Shown one piece after another: positions 25,319 through 39,193 of a stretch of 64,000 nucleotides of DNA. Source of the DNA: Lentzea alba (GTDB lineage: Bacteria > Actinomycetota > Actinomycetes > Mycobacteriales > Pseudonocardiaceae); assembly GCF_011067745.1 (NCBI RefSeq), contig NZ_JAAMPJ010000004.1:558001-622000 (forward strand). Reading direction: 5' to 3'. How positions within the stretch are numbered: the first letter of the stretch is position 1; each line of letters opens with the position of its first letter. The notes under the pieces are model-generated. The model was not told the DNA's origin and searched no databases. It saw only the letters and a list, made by a program, of their open reading frames with translations. The translations under genes were made by a program, and so were the position numbers.

Positions 25319-26677
25319 ATGCAGCGGCGGATCTTCGGCATTGAGACAGAATTCGGGGTGACCTGCACCTTCCACGGGCAGCGTCGTCTGTCCCCGGACG
25401 AGGTCGCGCGGTACTTGTTCCGCCGGGTCGTCTCCTGGGGACGTTCGTCCAACGTGTTCCTGCGCAACGGTTCCCGGCTCTACCTGGACGTCGGCTCGCA
25501 CCCGGAGTACGCCACGGCCGAGTGCGACGACCTGGCCCAGCTGGTCACGCACGACAAGGCGGGCGAGCGGATCCTCGAGGACCTCCTGGTCGACGCCGAG
25601 CGCAGGCTCGCCGACGAGGGCATCGGCGGGGACATCTTCCTGTTCAAGAACAACACCGACTCGGCGGGCAACTCCTACGGCTGCCACGAGAACTACCTGG
25701 TCGCACGGGCCGGCGAGTTCTCCCGCATCGCGGACGTGCTGCTGCCGTTCCTGGTCACCCGCCAGCTGATCTGCGGCGCCGGCAAGGTGCTGCAGACCCC
25801 GCGCGGCGCCGTGTACTGCCTCTCCCAGCGCGCGGAGCACATCTGGGAGGGCGTGTCGTCCGCGACCACGCGTTCCCGCCCGATCATCAACACCCGCGAC
25901 GAGCCGCACGCCGACGCCGAGCGCTATCGGCGCCTGCACGTCATCGTCGGCGACTCGAACATGTCCGAGGTGACGACGCTGCTCAAGGTGGGCAGCGCCA
26001 ACCTGGTGCTGGAGATGATCGAGCAGGGCGTCCAGTTCCGCGACTTCTCCCTGGACAACCCGATCCGCGCCATCCGCGAGATCTCCCACGACCTCACCGG
26101 CCGCCGCACCGTCCGGCTGGCCGGCGGCAAGGAAGCCTCCGCGCTGGACATCCAGCGCGAGTACTACGAGAAGGCCGTCGAGCACGTGGCCAAGCGCTCT
26201 CCCGACCCGATGGCGCAGCGCGTCCTCGAACTGTGGGGCCGCACCCTCGACGCCGTCGAGTCGCAGGACCTCACCAAGATCGACCGCGAGATCGACTGGG
26301 CCATCAAGAACCGCCTGATGGAGCGGTACATGGCCAAGCACAACATGGACCTGTCCAACCCGCGCATCGCCCAGCTCGACCTCGCCTACCACGACATCCG
26401 GCGCGGCCGCGGCGTGTTCGACCTGCTGCAACGCAAGGGCCAGGTCGAGCGCGTCACCGACGACGGCGAGATCGAGGCCGCCAAGGACACCCCGCCGCAG
26501 ACCACGCGGGCCAAGCTACGCGGTGACTTCATCGCCGCCGCCCAGGCCGCCGGTCGCGACTTCACCGTCGACTGGGTGCACCTGAAGCTGAACGACCAGG
26601 CGCAGCGCACGGTGCTGTGCAAGGACCCGTTCCGGGCGGTGGACGAGCGCGTGGAAAGGCTCATTTCGTCGCTCTAG
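25319..26677 (+). CDS. pafA: PafA, Pup-protein ligase
   Basis: A 452-residue carboxylate-amine ligase that activates the C-terminal glutamate of Pup with ATP and joins it to substrate lysines. It starts [18 protein letters not shown], the diagnostic N-terminus with the Mg-binding glutamates, and contains [19 protein letters not shown] and [28 protein letters not shown]. It lacks the Dop loop, which separates it from the paralogue at 8.6 kb. In mycobacteria it heads pafA-pafB-pafC, but here pafB is more than 6 kb away. It is divergent from the PAP2 fusion over 59 bases, and its stop overlaps the stop of the convergent GHKL gene by four bases. Confidence 0.97.
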
Positions 26678-29600
26678 TCGAGCGTGAGGCCGAGTCTCCG
26701 CACTCGGTCGAGCGCTTCGCCGGGTGATGTTCGCGTCTTGAACGCCGCGGACATCACCTGGCCGCGGGGAAACGCCGCGTCGAGACTCCTGAACGGTTCC
26801 TTCCCGGTGAACGACTTGCTCAGCAAGGCGAGGTCGATCCGGTCGACGGAGATCGGCAGATCGCCGGTGTCCTCGACCGGAATGCCGAGTGCGATCAGGC
26901 GACGAGCGACTTCGACCGGTGCCAGTCCGGTTCGCTCCGCGCAGATCAGCAGGTGAAGCCGGTCAGCCGGAATGAATTTCCCGAGCCATAGGAACTCGGC
27001 GGGGCGGGAGATCTGCCAATGGGCGGGATCGACCGCCCGGCCGAGTAGCCGGCTGTCCAGGTCGGCGGTCGAGGGAAAATCCGTTGTCTCGATGCGCAGC
27101 CCCAAGGCCTTCAGCCGCGCGGCCACCTCTGCAGGCGGCCGGCCGAGCACGCTCGCGGCGGCGAGCACATGACCGAGCGGCAGCACGACCCCGGATCGCA
27201 TCGACGCCGGATGGGCGTCTGTCAACCAGGGCGGTCTGCCGTCGAGGGAGCTGCTCAGCAGGACCAGGTCGTCAGGTCCCACGCTGAGGTCGAGGACGCT
27301 CGGCGGGGGAGTGGCGAATCCGAGCCGGCCGAGTCTCCGTGCCACGTCGAGCGGAGATCTGCGAGTTCTGGCCGCCGCGATCATGATGTGTTGAAACGAC
27401 ACCTGGGCACCTGTCGGCAGCCAGGTGTCCAGCCGGCCGCTGTAGCCATGTCCTGTGTCGGATCCGATCGCGGTGCTCGTCAGCACGAGGTCGTCCTCCT
27501 CCACCTCCTCAGGCATCAGGTCGAACGACGGCGGGGTGTAGCCGAGCGCGGCGAGCCGCCGCGCGACTTGGCCTGGTGGCTGCCCGGTCCTGAGGGCCGC
27601 CGACAGCACGTGACCCATCGTGACAACGCTGTGAACGTGCAGCTCTTTGGAGCGTGCTCCGTTGGGGGACTGCTCCTTGGTCAAGACGAGGTCGGACTGC
27701 GCGATGAACTCGGGCGTCCTGTCGCTGGACGGCACCTCGAGCCCCAGTTCGGCAAGGCGCGCGGCGACATCCGCGGGGGATCGGTCTGATTTAATCGCGG
27801 CGAGTGTGATCTGCAGCAGTGGTACTGGGCTTGTCACGTACTTGTGGGTCGGCTGCGTCGTGTGCACGGTGAGGATGAACTCGTCGTCACCGTCGTTCTC
27901 GTTCGGAAGTTCTGCCAAGGCCGGGACTTCGTACCCGAGCTCAGCGAGGCGGTGTATCACCTCGGCGGGTGTCCGGTTGGTGCGAGCGGCGGCGATCAGA
28001 ACGTGCGCGACCTCGACGGGTTTCTCGACCCGCAGCACGCGCGCCCGCTCATCTGTCTGGATCAGCACTCGATCGGCCGGGTACACCGCAGAGGGCAGAT
28101 GCGCCGTGGCCGGCACGTCGTATCCGAGCTCGAGCAGTCGCGTTGCGACGCCTTGAGGGGCGATACCGGTGTTGATCGCTGCCAGGAGCACGTTGTAGTG
28201 CGGGACCGGCGTGAGCGGACTCAGCCATGGCGGCTTGCCGGGCCGGAACATCCCGAGCAGTTGAAGGTCAGTTGCTCGGGCGGTCGAGGGCAGTTTCCCC
28301 GGCGTGCGGGTCGAGTAGCCGAGCACAGCGAGACGTGCGGCGACCTCAGACGGCGAGCGTTGCGAACGAAGTGCCGCGGAGATCACGTGTCCGGTCTCCA
28401 CCGGGGAGGTGGCGGGCAACCAGTCACGATAAAACTCCGAGACGGTGCTGGAGTCGGCTGTCAGGAGAATCTCGTCGGATGGACGCGCCGGGACGACAGG
28501 GCGCGCCGCCGTAGACGATCCAGTCCGCGAGTTCGCCTGGAGCCAAGCCTCCAGTCTCCAGACCCCGATGCGGTTGCTCCACGTCGGAGGTAGCACCCCG
28601 GCGGCCGAAAGCACGTATTCGTCGAAAGGAAAGCAGCCGACGATCTCGATCGGCACCTCGCTGCCGGCGATCAGCCAAGGCCGATACCTGGCGTCGATCG
28701 CCTGTTCGCAGATCTCGTCTGCGAGTCGTGGCATGTCTTCGGCGAGGGTGGACAGCCATCGATGCGACAGTGGTGAGCGAGGTGACTCCAGCAGTGCGGG
28801 GATGGAGGCACGCAACAGGCCCTCGATCAGCGTCCGGTCGAGATTGATGATCGACTTGCGGTCGATGGTGAGCCGGGGCATGTCGTGCCGCGTGAGGTTG
28901 ACGACCGCGCCGAAGAGGCTCGTACCCGCCCAGATCCCGTCCGCGAGCACGGCTCCCTTCGTGTTGCACCACCAGATGTTGCCGTCCTGCGTGGGAACGA
29001 CTCGGCCGGCCGTTCTGCGAGGGTCCTCGCCCAGTGCGTCCGAACCGATCGGCGCCATCGTGGAGAGCCGATGGGGTTCCCAGGTCTGCCGGCCGCTCAT
29101 GTCGTCGGACGTGACCTCGTAGTCGCTGAGCCAGAGGATGCGCCGCAGCAGTTCGGTGCAGTGCAGTGGTGTGTCCGCGTGGCGCAGCCAGAGCCTCACC
29201 ACGGTTCCCGCGTCGGTGCCTTGACCGAGATCGCGCACGCGGAACAGCGCACCAGGACCGGCGATGTGCACTTCGAGCCGTCGCCCAGGGCTGCCCTCGC
29301 GGTCGAGACGGCAGGTCGTCACGGTGATCTCGTCGGCCAGCATGAAGTAGCTCAACACACCGATGCCGAAGCGGCTGTTGGGGAACGATTCGATGCCTTC
29401 CCCTGCCCAGTCGGCCTGTTCCTCGACGTACTCGGGCATGTCGGCGAATCTCACCCCGGCGCGGGAGAACACGTCGACCAGCTCACGATCGCCCATTCCG
29501 ATGCCGTTGTCGGCGCATTCGAGGAACTTCCGTCCGTGTTCGTCCACGCCCTGCCGGAAGCTGATGCGGCCTTTCCACGGCAACGAGGTGGCCCGTGTCT

Positions 29601-30906
29601 TCGTGAGGTAGGTCGTCCTGGCATCCCGGTAGCGGCAAGCGTCGAGCGCGTTCTGGTAAAGCTCGCGGATCGCGAGTTCCGGCGTCCCGTAGAGCTGCTC
29701 GCCCATGAGCAGCTCCTGGATCCGGTCGTCAGCCAGCCTGAAGCGGTGCCCCAGCGACGTGGACGGGTGGCCGGTGTCGTCGCCCGCCGCCAGCACCACG
29801 CCGTCAGCGGCGGCGTGCACCGGCATCGCCTTGAGCGGCGCAAGCCAGACCGATTCCTCCTCCACGACGTGGACGATCTCGGTGAGCACCGAGTCCACCA
29901 TCGCGGCCTGACCGCGCAGTGCCAGCACGGTGGCGGGATGACCGCACCCCGTGCACAGGGTGAGGGTCCGGTTTCCGTCCCACTCAACGGCCCTGATGGA
30001 TGCGAGCACGTCCGCCGGAACCAGTCCGTCCCGGACGCCGACGTGGTTGACCACCACGCGAGGCAACACCATCGGATCGATCGCTGTGCGGTGTGCGAAG
30101 ACGAGCAGATAGCCGATGAACTGTTCGCGGACGTTCTGCTGGCGCACGCTTCCGCCGGCGATGCGCACCACGGGCTTCAGCTTCGTGGTGCGGTCGGCGC
30201 GGCGCAGGAACGCCGGGTCGATCTGCACGACCCGCATCAGTTCCATGAGCCGTGCGGCGCCGAGTGCCGAGTTCAACGGCGAAGGCAACGCGGTGGGAAG
30301 CAGCGCGGCGACGTTGTCCGCGTGGTAGCACTCAGGCCGCTGCACGAGCCACCGGTGGAACAACCACCAGCCGATACCGCTCGCGGCCTCGTCGCCGTTC
30401 TCCGCGGCCTGTGCACCTCGGCGGTACACGCTGCCATGCTCGGCGGCGAACGAGCTGAGATCACCCTTCGCGCCACCACGGCTGAACGCTCCGACCGCCG
30501 GGTCCGGCGCGGACCGCAGCACCTCCGCCGCTCGTTGCGCCCAGAACGCCTGGTGCAGGTAGGGGAACGCGACCAGCAGCGCCACCTCGGCCGCGGTCAG
30601 CTCCTCGTCCTGCAACACCAGATCGATCACCCACCTGGTTCGTTCCGTGAACCGCTCGGCGAACGCGTCGTCGAACCACGGGTCGTCCGCGAGTGCGGGG
30701 CGGGCCTCCTCCCACTGTGCTGCCAGCTCCCGCACGACCGCGGCGGTGGCACTCCGCATCTCCTCCGTCTGCCGGCCGGGCTTGAGACGGTCCCATCCCT
30801 CGTGCTCAAGCGCACCTCGCGACCACGGGTGCGGGTTCGTCAGCTCCGTGAACGACCTGTCCGGCTGACTGGCGCTGATGGGCGGGTCCTGGTCGCTCTC
30901 GGGCAT
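26674..30906 (-). CDS. Giant GHKL (Hsp90-like) ATPase with nine C-terminal wHTH-like repeats
   Basis: A 1410-residue protein with three parts. Residues about 40-375 are an all-helical region that may be an inactivated HD-type domain; it includes a lone CTGCGH (318-323). Residues about 390-740 are a GHKL ATPase with N box ELYQNALDA (415-423), G1 DNGIGM (466-471) and G2 [10 protein letters not shown] (512-521), followed by a domain resembling the Hsp90 middle segment only loosely. Residues 836-1410 contain nine copies of a 63-74-residue unit. It is not HtpG, which is separate at 37.4 kb. Hsp90-like ATPases with added winged-helix modules have been predicted as bacterial conflict proteins. It lies between pafA and a BNR gene, and its stop overlaps pafA's stop. 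Confidence 0.8.
26677..28401 (-). repeat. Nine-copy protein repeat at the C-terminus of the GHKL ATPase
   Basis: The core of each unit reads roughly GHVLxAAxxTxRSPxEVAxR followed by LxxLGyxVP. Core starts are near residues 838, 903, 966, 1030, 1097, 1171, 1244, 1314 and 1381. The link to the next unit usually contains LP and a (D)LVLLS-like strand about 35 residues after the core. Examples are [18 protein letters not shown] (unit 4) and [18 protein letters not shown] (unit 3). Helix-turn-helix-like spacing suggests a winged-helix-type fold; that fold is inferred, not shown. Confidence 0.75.
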
Positions 30907-30992
30907 GGGGAGATCCTCGTCCCTGACCGCGGACTGAGCCGACCGCCGATCGGGGCTAGGAAGCGATCACCGGCTCGGTGAAGAGTGGCGGA

Positions 30993-32000
30993 ATGAGGAT
31001 CATTGCGGCGGCACTCGCTGCTTTTCTGGTTCTACCGGGGGTCGCATCGGCCTCCGACACCTACTGGGAGCTCAAACCGACCGGCACGGACGCCCAGCTG
31101 CGCGGCCTGTCCGCCGTCTCCGGTCAGGTCGCGTGGGTCAGCGGCTCCAAAGGCACCGTCCTGCGCACGGTCAACGGTGGCCGGTCGTGGGAGTCCGTCG
31201 CGCCGCCCGGCACCGAGGCGCTGGACTTCCGCGACATCGAGGCGTTCGACGCGCGCAACGCGGTGGCCCTGTCGATCGGCAGCGGCGAGTCGTCGCGGAT
31301 CTACCGCACGTCCGACGGTGGGAAGACCTGGCAGGAGTCGTTCCGCAACACCGACCCCGATCCGGCCGTCTTCTACGACTGCGTGGCGTTCTTCGACCGG
31401 TTCCGCGGGCTGGCGTTGAGTGACCCCGTCAACGGCAAGTTCCGGGTGCTCAGGACGTGGGACGGTGGTCGGTCGTGGCACCTCAACGACACGAAGGGCA
31501 TGCCGGACGCGTTGCCGGGTGAGTTCGCGTTCGCAGCAAGCGGGCAGTGTGTCACGACGAGCGGTAACCACGCGTGGATCGCTACCGGCGGCGGGGCGAA
31601 GGCACGGGTGTTGGAGTCGCGGGACGGTGGTCGGTCGTGGAAGGCGTCGGACACCCCGTTGCCGTCTGGCGACGCTGCCGGGGTGTTCGCGGTGGCGTTC
31701 AAGACGCCGTGGCGGGGTGTGGCGATCGGTGGCGACTACAAGAAGCCGACCGATCCGACGCCGGCGTTCGCGACCTACGACGGGCACGGGTGGAAGGCCG
31801 GGAAGCAGGCGCCGGTCGGGTATCGGTCCGGGATCGCCTACCGGGGCAACGGACTGGTCGCGGTGGGGCCGTCGGGCACGGACACCAGCAAGGACGGCAG
31901 GAGTTGGAAGGTCGCGGACACCGGGAGCTTCGACACCGTGGACTGCGTTGGTAACACCTGCTGGGCGTCTGGCGAAAAGGGACGTGTCGGCCGCTCCTGA
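30993..32000 (+). CDS. Secreted BNR/Asp-box beta-propeller protein (Ycf48/sialidase-like)
   Basis: A 335-residue exported protein. MRIIAAALAAFLVLPGVASAS is a clear signal peptide. Five Asp-box units are seen: VNGGRSWES, SDGGKTWQE, WDGGRSWHL, RDGGRSWKA and KDGRSWKV, giving a propeller like those called oxidoreductases or photosystem assembly-like. The sialidase catalytic residues are not evident, so an enzyme role should not be assumed. I chose ATG 30993, five codons inside a longer reading frame. It is divergent from the GHKL ATPase over 86 bases and is followed 18 bases later by the dehalogenase-like gene. Confidence 0.82.
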   Translation: MRIIAAALAAFLVLPGVASASDTYWELKPTGTDAQLRGLSAVSGQVAWVSGSKGTVLRTVNGGRSWESVAPPGTEALDFRDIEAFDARNAVALSIGSGESSRIYRTSDGGKTWQESFRNTDPDPAVFYDCVAFFDRFRGLALSDPVNGKFRVLRTWDGGRSWHLNDTKGMPDALPGEFAFAASGQCVTTSGNHAWIATGGGAKARVLESRDGGRSWKASDTPLPSGDAAGVFAVAFKTPWRGVAIGGDYKKPTDPTPAFATYDGHGWKAGKQAPVGYRSGIAYRGNGLVAVGPSGTDTSKDGRSWKVADTGSFDTVDCVGNTCWASGEKGRVGRS

Positions 32001-37351: not shown

Positions 37352-39193
37352 ATGGAAACGCTCGAGTTCCAGTCCGAGGCACGCCAGCTGCTGCAGCTGA
37401 TGATCCACTCGATCTACTCGAACAAGGACACGTTCCTGCGCGAGCTGGTGTCGAACGCCTCGGACGCGCTGGACAAGCTGCGGCTGGAGTCGTTCCGCGA
37501 CAAGGACATGCAGGTCGACGTCGACGACCTGCACATCGTGATCGAGTCCGATCCGGCGGAGCGCACGCTGACCGTGCGCGACAACGGCATCGGCATGACG
37601 CACGAGGACGTCGTGCGGCTCATCGGCACGATCGCCAAGTCCGGTACCGCGGAGTTCCTGAAGCAGCTCAAGGAACAGCAGTCGTCGACCTCGGACCTGA
37701 TCGGCCAGTTCGGCATCGGCTTCTACTCGTCGTTCATGGTGGCCGACAAGGTCACCCTCGTGACGAAGTACCCGCACGCGGAGAAGGGTGTCCGCTGGGA
37801 GTCGACGGGCGAAAGCACGTACACGATCGAGGACGTCGACGACGCGCCGCAGGGCACCTCGGTCACGCTGCACCTCAAGCCGTCCGACGACGAGGACAAG
37901 CTGCCGGACTACACCGAGCCGGCGAAGATCCGCGAGATCGTCAAGCGCTACTCGGACTTCATCACCTGGCCCGTGCGGCTCGGCGGCGAGGACATCAACT
38001 CCCGCAAGGCGTTGTGGGCGCGTCCGGCCTCCGAGGTGACGGAGGAGGAGTACGCGGAGTTCTACCGGCACATCAGCCACGACTGGAACGCTCCGCTGGA
38101 GACCATCCGCATGCAGGCGGAGGGCACGTTCGAGTACCAGGCGCTGCTGTTCCTGCCGTCGCAGGCGCCGCTGGACCTGTTCATGCGGGACGGCAAGCGC
38201 GGTGTGCAGCTCTACGTGAAGCGCGTCTTCATCATGGACGACTGCGCCGAGCTGATGCCGGAGTACCTGCGCTTCGTGAAGGGCGTGGTCGACGCCGCCG
38301 ACCTGTCGCTGAACGTCTCGCGCGAGATCCTGCAGCAGGACCGCCAGATCCAGCTGATGCGCCGCCGGTTGGTGAAGAAGGTCCTGTCGTCGATCAAGTC
38401 GCTGCAGTCGTCGCGGGCCGAGGACTACGCCAAGCTGTGGGCCGAGGTCGGCGCGGCGCTGAAGGAGGGCCTGCTCTCCGACGCCGACAACCGCGACGCG
38501 ATCCTCGAGGTCTGCTCGTTCGCCTCGACGCACTCCGCGGACTCGCTGACGACGTTGGCCGAGTACGTGTCGCGGATGAAGGACGGCCAGGAGCACATCT
38601 ACTTCATGACGGGTGACTCGCGGCTGGCCGTGGAGAACTCGCCGCACCTGGAAGCGTTGCGCGCCAAGGACTTCGAGGTGCTGATCCTGACCGACCCGAT
38701 CGACGAGATGTGGGTCGACTCGGTGCCCGCGTTCCAGGGCAAGCCGCTCCAGTCCGTCGCCAAGGGACAGGTGGACCTGGAGACGGAAGAGGAGAAGTCC
38801 GCGGCGGCCGAGAAGGCCACGGAGTTCGCCGACCTGCTCTCGTGGATGGCGTCCTCTCTCGAGGAGAACGTCAAGGAGGTGCGGCTGTCCACGCGCCTCA
38901 CGACCTCACCGGCGTGTGTGGTCGGCGACGCGCACGACATCACTCCGACGCTGGAGAAGATGTACAAGGCGATGGGGCAGGAGCTGCCGAAGATCAAGCG
39001 GATCCTGGAGCTCAACCCGTCGCACCCGCTGGTCGAGGGTCTGCACAAGGCGTTCGCGGACGGTGAACGGGAGTCGCTCGCGGACACCGCCGAGCTGATC
39101 TACGGGCTGGCGCTGCTGGCCGAGGGCGGCGAGCTCGCCGACCCGTCGCGGTTCGTGAAGCTGGTCGCTGACCGGGTGCAGCGCACGTTCTGA
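37352..39193 (+). CDS. htpG: Molecular chaperone HtpG (bacterial Hsp90)
   Basis: A 613-residue ATP-dependent chaperone. The N-terminal GHKL domain shows [30 protein letters not shown] and [15 protein letters not shown]. The middle domain has [35 protein letters not shown], and the C-terminal dimerisation domain ends near [10 protein letters not shown]. The length is normal for HtpG (about 620). It follows the lipid kinase by 44 bases and is closed by a hairpin. It is distinct from the much larger GHKL protein at 27-31 kb, which lacks the Hsp90 middle and C-terminal domains. Confidence 0.97.

Follow-up and report, generated by a model that had tools for sequence, protein, structure and literature searches.

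A Predicted Hsp90-Type Sensor-Switch Protein with a Nine-Unit Repeat Array in a Variable Slot beside pafA in Lentzea

A gene inserted beside the Pup ligase gene pafA in Lentzea alba encodes a protein of 1,410 residues that probably acts as an NLR/STAND-like sensor-switch, with an Hsp90-type GHKL ATPase that would take the place of the usual NTPase and an effector that would act from another protein. The gene lies in a stretch of 64,000 nucleotides, referred to below as the window. Its domain family is already catalogued in Pfam, so the architecture is not new; the gene is ordinary as architecture and informative as a locus. Within the genus it occurs in scattered, divergent versions at one fixed chromosomal spot, as expected of a defence gene.

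RESULTS

Domain architecture

The open reading frame (P0001) occupies 26674..30906 on the minus strand and begins with ATG, exactly where the first-pass annotation had placed it. According to Pfam, NCBIfam, and PDB searches, its domains follow in the order iHD-CE, Hsp90-type ATPase, and nine PF24410 units, and the scores are far beyond chance. PF00183 is absent from the protein in Pfam at E up to 1, in keeping with the earlier claim that the domain set is not that of HtpG; the HtpG of the window (37352-39193) has a related ATPase domain but carries PF00183. In PADLOC-DB 2.0.0, 0 families matched the protein at E up to 1.

The iHD-CE domain (PF24401) spans residues 28-370 (29797..30825, minus strand), with an E value of 4.3e-78 and 263.4 bits against a cut-off of 27; a weaker Pfam match to HD-CE (PF24391) has an E value of 2.9e-27. 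The 27 residues ahead of iHD-CE leave no fused effector domain. The HD-CE-Hsp90 protein of Priestia megaterium plasmid pNCT2_2 (L210; 607 residues) likewise has an HD domain directly ahead of an Hsp90-like ATPase. It has no PF24410 match and keeps the HD dyad (AYAHDVG), in contrast to the window protein, where we placed LHQAF at this position by eye. AYAHDVG was aligned by eye to FPYLHQAF, the automatic alignment being gapped there, and in the same alignment HD is absent, again by eye, at the dyad position in 11 of 11 iHD rows. On this reading, LHQ (within LHQAFW) replaces the catalytic dyad, and the metal-binding pair of an active HD phosphohydrolase appears not to have been kept, in agreement with the inactivated HD-type region that had been proposed.

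The ATPase covers residues about 385-580 (29167..29754, minus strand), as placed by NCBIfam, PDB, and alignment, and has intact ATP-binding motifs. Two NCBIfam Hsp90 models matched the region about 400-580 at 1.9e-13 and 4.6e-11, both under their full-length cut-offs, and HATPase_c_3 of Pfam reached 14.8 bits, below its cut-off of 25. Against HtpG in the PDB (2ior), the E value was 1.1e-7 with the protein alone and 4.6e-12 with a 45-row profile. The GHKL boxes, previously described as intact, were found as quoted: ELYQNALDA (415-423), DNGIGM (466-471), and FGIGVLSYF (513-521). Residues E415, N419, D466, G468, G470, G514, and G516 are invariant across 45 aligned proteins, that is, 45 of the 75 listed relative rows. 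A middle region follows (residues 581-806; 28489..29166, minus strand) that has no Pfam match. The genome encodes a second large Hsp90-like ATPase protein, of 1,087 residues (L069:8031-11294), in which no other Pfam domain was detected at E up to 0.001.

The repeat array

The C terminus matches PF24410 (wHTH-HSP90_Na-assoc) in nine stretches, with an E value of 5.1e-92 and 302.6 bits in Pfam. As delimited by Pfam and a unit profile, the units lie, all on the minus strand, at 28294..28488 (unit 1), 28099..28293 (unit 2), 27910..28098 (unit 3), 27715..27909 (unit 4), 27514..27714 (unit 5), 27283..27513 (unit 6), 27055..27282 (unit 7, which holds the best Pfam stretch, residues 1209-1270), 26860..27054 (unit 8), and 26677..26859 (unit 9). 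Unit cores start at residues 839, 904, 967, 1031, 1098, 1172, 1245, 1317, and 1382; this spacing of 63-74 residues reproduces the nine units of 63-74 residues counted from the sequence beforehand. The comparison with winged-helix structures that had been suggested turned out differently: the unit profile matched no credible winged-helix chain in the PDB, and the winged-helix identity of the units rests on the family name given by Pfam.

All seven Lentzea alleles carry nine units. Across the wider relative set the number ranges from 0 to 14, cut and frame-broken ORFs included; counts were made with a home-made profile at a 2-bit threshold and are rough for distant relatives. When units were compared between Lentzea alleles, the best match was the unit at the same position of the other allele in 294 of 378 comparisons, and the most alike core pair inside a single Lentzea protein reached 67%; the array therefore stands in a fixed register and is not freshly expanded. 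Concerted evolution of the units in Lentzea is ruled out by these same-position matches, and variation in unit number at the Lentzea pafA locus by the constant count, so the copy-number change anticipated among close relatives did not appear. One arginine is kept in 63 of 63 unit cores from the seven alleles. Array expansion does occur in the family, judging from a Microbispora relative (L124:8419-10197) whose whole units are on average 60% alike and reach 86% in the closest pair. The corresponding mean in the window protein is 32%, and the Microbispora units look as they would after a recent expansion.

The slot after pafA

The gene and pafA (25319..26677, plus strand) are convergent, and their stop codons overlap; on the other side, a gene for a BNR-type protein (30978..32000, plus strand) lies about 70 bp from the start of the gene. 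Right of the BNR gene are an alpha/beta hydrolase, two WYL-domain genes (pafB and pafC type, the second with HTH_PafC), tatC, a lipid kinase, htpG, and a DSHCT helicase, while further left of pafA are a proteasome subunit and a second Pup-ligase-family gene, which by its place we take to be dop. No effector or partner gene adjoins the gene in the Lentzea neighborhoods examined. The canonical htpG (37352-39193) sits within this pafBC-tatC-helicase gene run and was not found in the matching 18.5 kb of G023.

Our genus sample comprised 24 Lentzea genomes, one per species, and pafA is present in all 24. Seven (the window genome, G001, G002, G004, G005, G007, and G022) carry the full-length gene, always directly after pafA, and G023 has a 35% relative elsewhere in the genome. 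The gene is missing after pafA in 17 genomes. In 12 of the 24, 24-535 bp separate pafA from the BNR gene, and five have other material after pafA, namely, a gene with a LuxR-type HTH in G003, a subtilase and other genes in G006, and sugar- and oxygenase-type biosynthetic genes, common to all three, in G012, G015, and G020. In G006, G012, G015, and G020, the sequence read after pafA does not contain the right flank; a large insert is likely in these genomes, rearrangement being the alternative. With 7 carriers and 12 short gaps among 24 genomes, the gene is an insertion beside pafA within an otherwise conserved locus, as the first-pass annotation had held. More broadly, the 3′ end of pafA (L057, L058, L060, L061, and L063) appears to serve Lentzea as a general site of insertion.

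Presence pattern and allele divergence

On a tree built from six flanking genes, four rows of which are only 37% filled, the presence or absence of the gene requires 6 changes (no fewer than 5 by starred branches). With the labels shuffled, the mean was 6.3 changes, and 264 of 500 shuffles were as low as observed; presence is thus as scattered as shuffled labels. For example, G016, with an empty slot, and G004, a carrier, are sisters at 100/100.

Mean identity among the seven alleles is 55.1% (49.9-63.4), and the means of eight flanking proteins are 83.6-99.1%. By part, the alleles are 79% identical in the ATPase, 61% in residues 581-760, 59% in the iHD domain, and 45% in the repeats, with 44.6% in the first 27 residues and the lowest value, 38%, in residues 760-835. 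The expectation of fast-evolving repeats therefore holds for their sequence but not for their number.

Where the amino acid is the same, four-fold sites differ by 0.51 on average in the gene and by averages of 0.21-0.35 in its flanks; pafC is excluded from the latter, because many of its pairs seem misregistered (56-73 sites against about 270-300 in others). In the closest pair, G000-G022, the value is 0.49 in the gene (from 303 sites) versus 0.05-0.22 in eight flanking genes; two flanking genes matched in GC3 (0.84-0.88 against 0.83-0.86) differ at 0.17 and 0.22. Along the chromosome, identity in this pair is 96-100% up to the gene, sinks to 54-82% over its length, and climbs back inside the following gene, and divergence shifts sharply at the gene ends in all three pairs compared. 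The trees also conflict. G005 groups with G004 and G007 in the gene tree (100/100) and with G001 in the flank tree (94/97), and G000 and G022 are sisters by their flanks (100/100), whereas the gene tree joins G022 to G001 (93/93). As a control, two biosynthetic-insert genes of G012, G015, and G020 differ by 0.06-0.18 and their flanks by 0.06-0.26, so that these genes diverge like their own flanks, unlike the 1,410-residue gene. Given the four-fold sites, the sharp boundaries, the tree conflict, and the control insert, the gene versions look older than the chromosomal backgrounds carrying them. This pattern would most simply arise if recombination within the conserved flanks had replaced one version with another; mutation at a higher rate in this gene alone could also have produced the allele divergence.

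Relatives and candidate effectors

Matches at an E value of 1e-30 or better occur in 5 of 397 genomes of the order, the window genome and G007 among them, and in 25 of 394 genomes of the class. PF24410 by itself occurs in 23 of those 397 genomes, in most cases as one weak stretch within some other protein; hence, the unit alone is not diagnostic. An alignment-query search of genome contigs confirmed 105 relatives, of which the best 80 were kept, all actinobacterial; the same contig search with a single protein as the query returned no relatives. An N-terminal extension of at least 180 residues is present in 33 of these best 80, and 47, including five pafA-locus Lentzea, have no such extension, so family members do not always carry an effector. 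Pfam recognized a caspase in 20 of the 33 extensions and a trypsin in 1; ten extensions from other loci comprise four with TIR, five with caspase, and one with no match. The earlier assignment to a conflict-type family is supported, since caspase or TIR domains are fused to this core in relatives.

A protein on an Azospirillum plasmid (L207) combines a caspase, iHD-CE, and one PF24410 stretch, showing that the architecture reaches Pseudomonadota. On a Streptomyces collinus plasmid, a protein without a Pfam family (L208:5545-7098) is 49% identical over 239 residues to the ATPase part, and its gene is separated from fxsT and trypco2 genes by a few others.

We placed the relatives in a quick tree of 85 rows, with a midpoint root and two long rows (L143 and L175); L148, L150, and L185 were left out. 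The Lentzea clade (SH-aLRT 100) lies inside a clade of 32 rows. A GHG caspase-like motif is present in the extensions of 19 of 19 named non-Lentzea rows of this clade, 14 of which also have a DACR-like motif; in its six further rows Pfam found caspase in one and TIR in three, and two were outside the scan. The nearest sister of the Lentzea clade is the Microbispora protein L124, at a fork with a support of 85, below the star. No caspase-like N-terminal extension was found in the Lentzea proteins. On the other side of the root, an extension of this kind is missing from most rows, and effector-less forms are common. On the simplest reading of these relationships, Lentzea would be without an effector by loss. 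The Amycolatopsis locus L148 is frame-broken and has no pafA nearby, and the start of its first open frame resembles the caspase extensions by eye.

Which protein might serve as a partner was considered from several sides. Caspase matches occur in 24 of 24 Lentzea genomes, one to five in each, so no caspase partner is singled out and a correlation with gene presence gave no signal. An active HD-CE elsewhere in the genus was also rejected, all eight PF24391 matches lying inside iHD proteins. The 41 loci of extension-less relatives contain 28 same-strand neighbors, 5 with an HD domain and the others mixed. With tblastn, a small gene for a stand-alone HD-domain protein was found downstream in six of the 10 Actinomadura loci (L144, L157, L160, L167, L169, and L174, at about 9.7-10.5 kb) and in no other scanned locus. 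Its HD match starts 11-23 bases past the ORF in five of the six loci, and the HD motif is present. This gene is a possible effector in trans, to be taken as a lead only.

DISCUSSION

The window protein shares its domains, their order, and the Hsp90-type ATPase with the iHD-CE/HSP90/wHTH-HSP90_Na-assoc proteins (PF24401 and PF24410), and like many of these relatives it has no N-terminal effector. The Lentzea versions differ by their fixed nine-unit array, their slot after pafA, and their highly divergent alleles. In NLR/STAND proteins, an effector, an NTPase switch, and C-terminal repeats follow in that order, which is also the order of parts in the effector-bearing relatives of the window protein; in contrast, its own NTPase is of the GHKL/Hsp90 rather than the STAND type, its repeats belong to another family, and the effector is missing.

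In the sensor-switch that we propose, the C-terminal nine-unit array would bind an invader- or stress-derived ligand. Ligand binding together with ATP would then close the Hsp90-like clamp and let the protein assemble, with the inactive HD domain as a docking or regulatory part. In relatives, the N-terminal caspase or TIR domain would provide the output. The Lentzea branch has no effector of its own, so its output would have to come from another protein, perhaps a stand-alone caspase or an HD enzyme like that beside several Actinomadura versions. We infer ligand recognition, switching, an effector in trans, and a role in defence from domain content and genomic context.

Other explanations account for parts of the evidence. 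The protein could be a DNA-binding regulator whose nine units bind DNA jointly while the Hsp90-like ATPase remodels the array, controlling genes with no death or defence output. We regard this as unlikely. Pfam's winged-helix name and the arginine kept in every unit core agree with it, yet the unit profile matched no winged-helix chain, in relatives this core is joined to caspase and TIR domains, and the repeats rank among the most divergent parts, which is unusual for a regulator of fixed sites. The position at pafA might instead mark a proteostasis factor of the Pup-proteasome system. All seven full-length close copies in the genus directly follow pafA, and htpG, the pafB/pafC-type genes, and the second Pup-ligase-family gene lie within the same window. 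However, among the loci of the best 80 relatives (up to about 6 kb on each side, some stretches shorter), pafA is near the gene only in the five pafA-locus Lentzea; it is in 0 of 24 other neighborhoods (up to 20 kb, partly from the same genomes), and the place after pafA holds other material or almost nothing in many Lentzea. A link to pupylation was rejected because pafA is not near relatives outside the pafA-locus Lentzea, and we give the proteostasis reading the least credence. As for a housekeeping chaperone, which the first-pass annotation had set as its counter-case, the unit number is constant and the neighbors are housekeeping genes, but the sequence is not constant and the gene is present in only 7 of 24 genomes.

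Two further readings, each highly improbable in our view, start from the missing effector and the divergence of the alleles. A leftover gene, decaying without its effector and diverging under relaxed selection, would explain both the bare N terminus and the low allele identity. Against this, the frame is open without internal stops in all seven copies, the ATPase has kept its catalytic residues and a high identity, and the number and register of the units are preserved; moreover, relaxed selection on the protein alone would not raise divergence at four-fold sites. Divergent alleles at a fixed slot could also serve kin or self recognition, the array telling strains apart at hyphal contact rather than sensing phage, but phage defence is just as compatible with the effectors of the relatives. 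A different gene under diversifying selection or repeated transfer could likewise show divergence and patchiness.

Hsp90-driven immune-type switches have already been predicted. A 2023 study by Nicastro et al. in NAR reportedly described Hsp90-related modules as STAND-domain analogues coupled to effectors and is said to be the source of both the prediction joining Hsp90 to winged-helix modules and the iHD-CE/HSP90/wHTH proteins. The study is cited in PMC12839542. Kaur et al. 2020 (PMC7159879) do not make the prediction: in their text, “hsp90” has 0 occurrences and “whth” 1, in another context. No title concerning an experiment with the iHD-CE/HSP90/wHTH family was found in a search that mostly did not cover subscription journals, which is weak evidence of absence.

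Returning to the sensor-switch reading, the pafA slot may, more tentatively, be a locus with long-maintained allele classes, at which recombination exchanges anciently diverged forms of a sensor driven by an Hsp90-type ATPase, one that has lost its own effector and acts through a partner. If so, it would resemble the polymorphic resistance-gene or allorecognition loci known from plants and fungi. With its defined slot, its naturally occurring series of alleles, and relatives in which the site is empty (G016 lacks the gene that its sister G004 carries), the locus lends itself to direct comparison of presence, absence, and allele differences.
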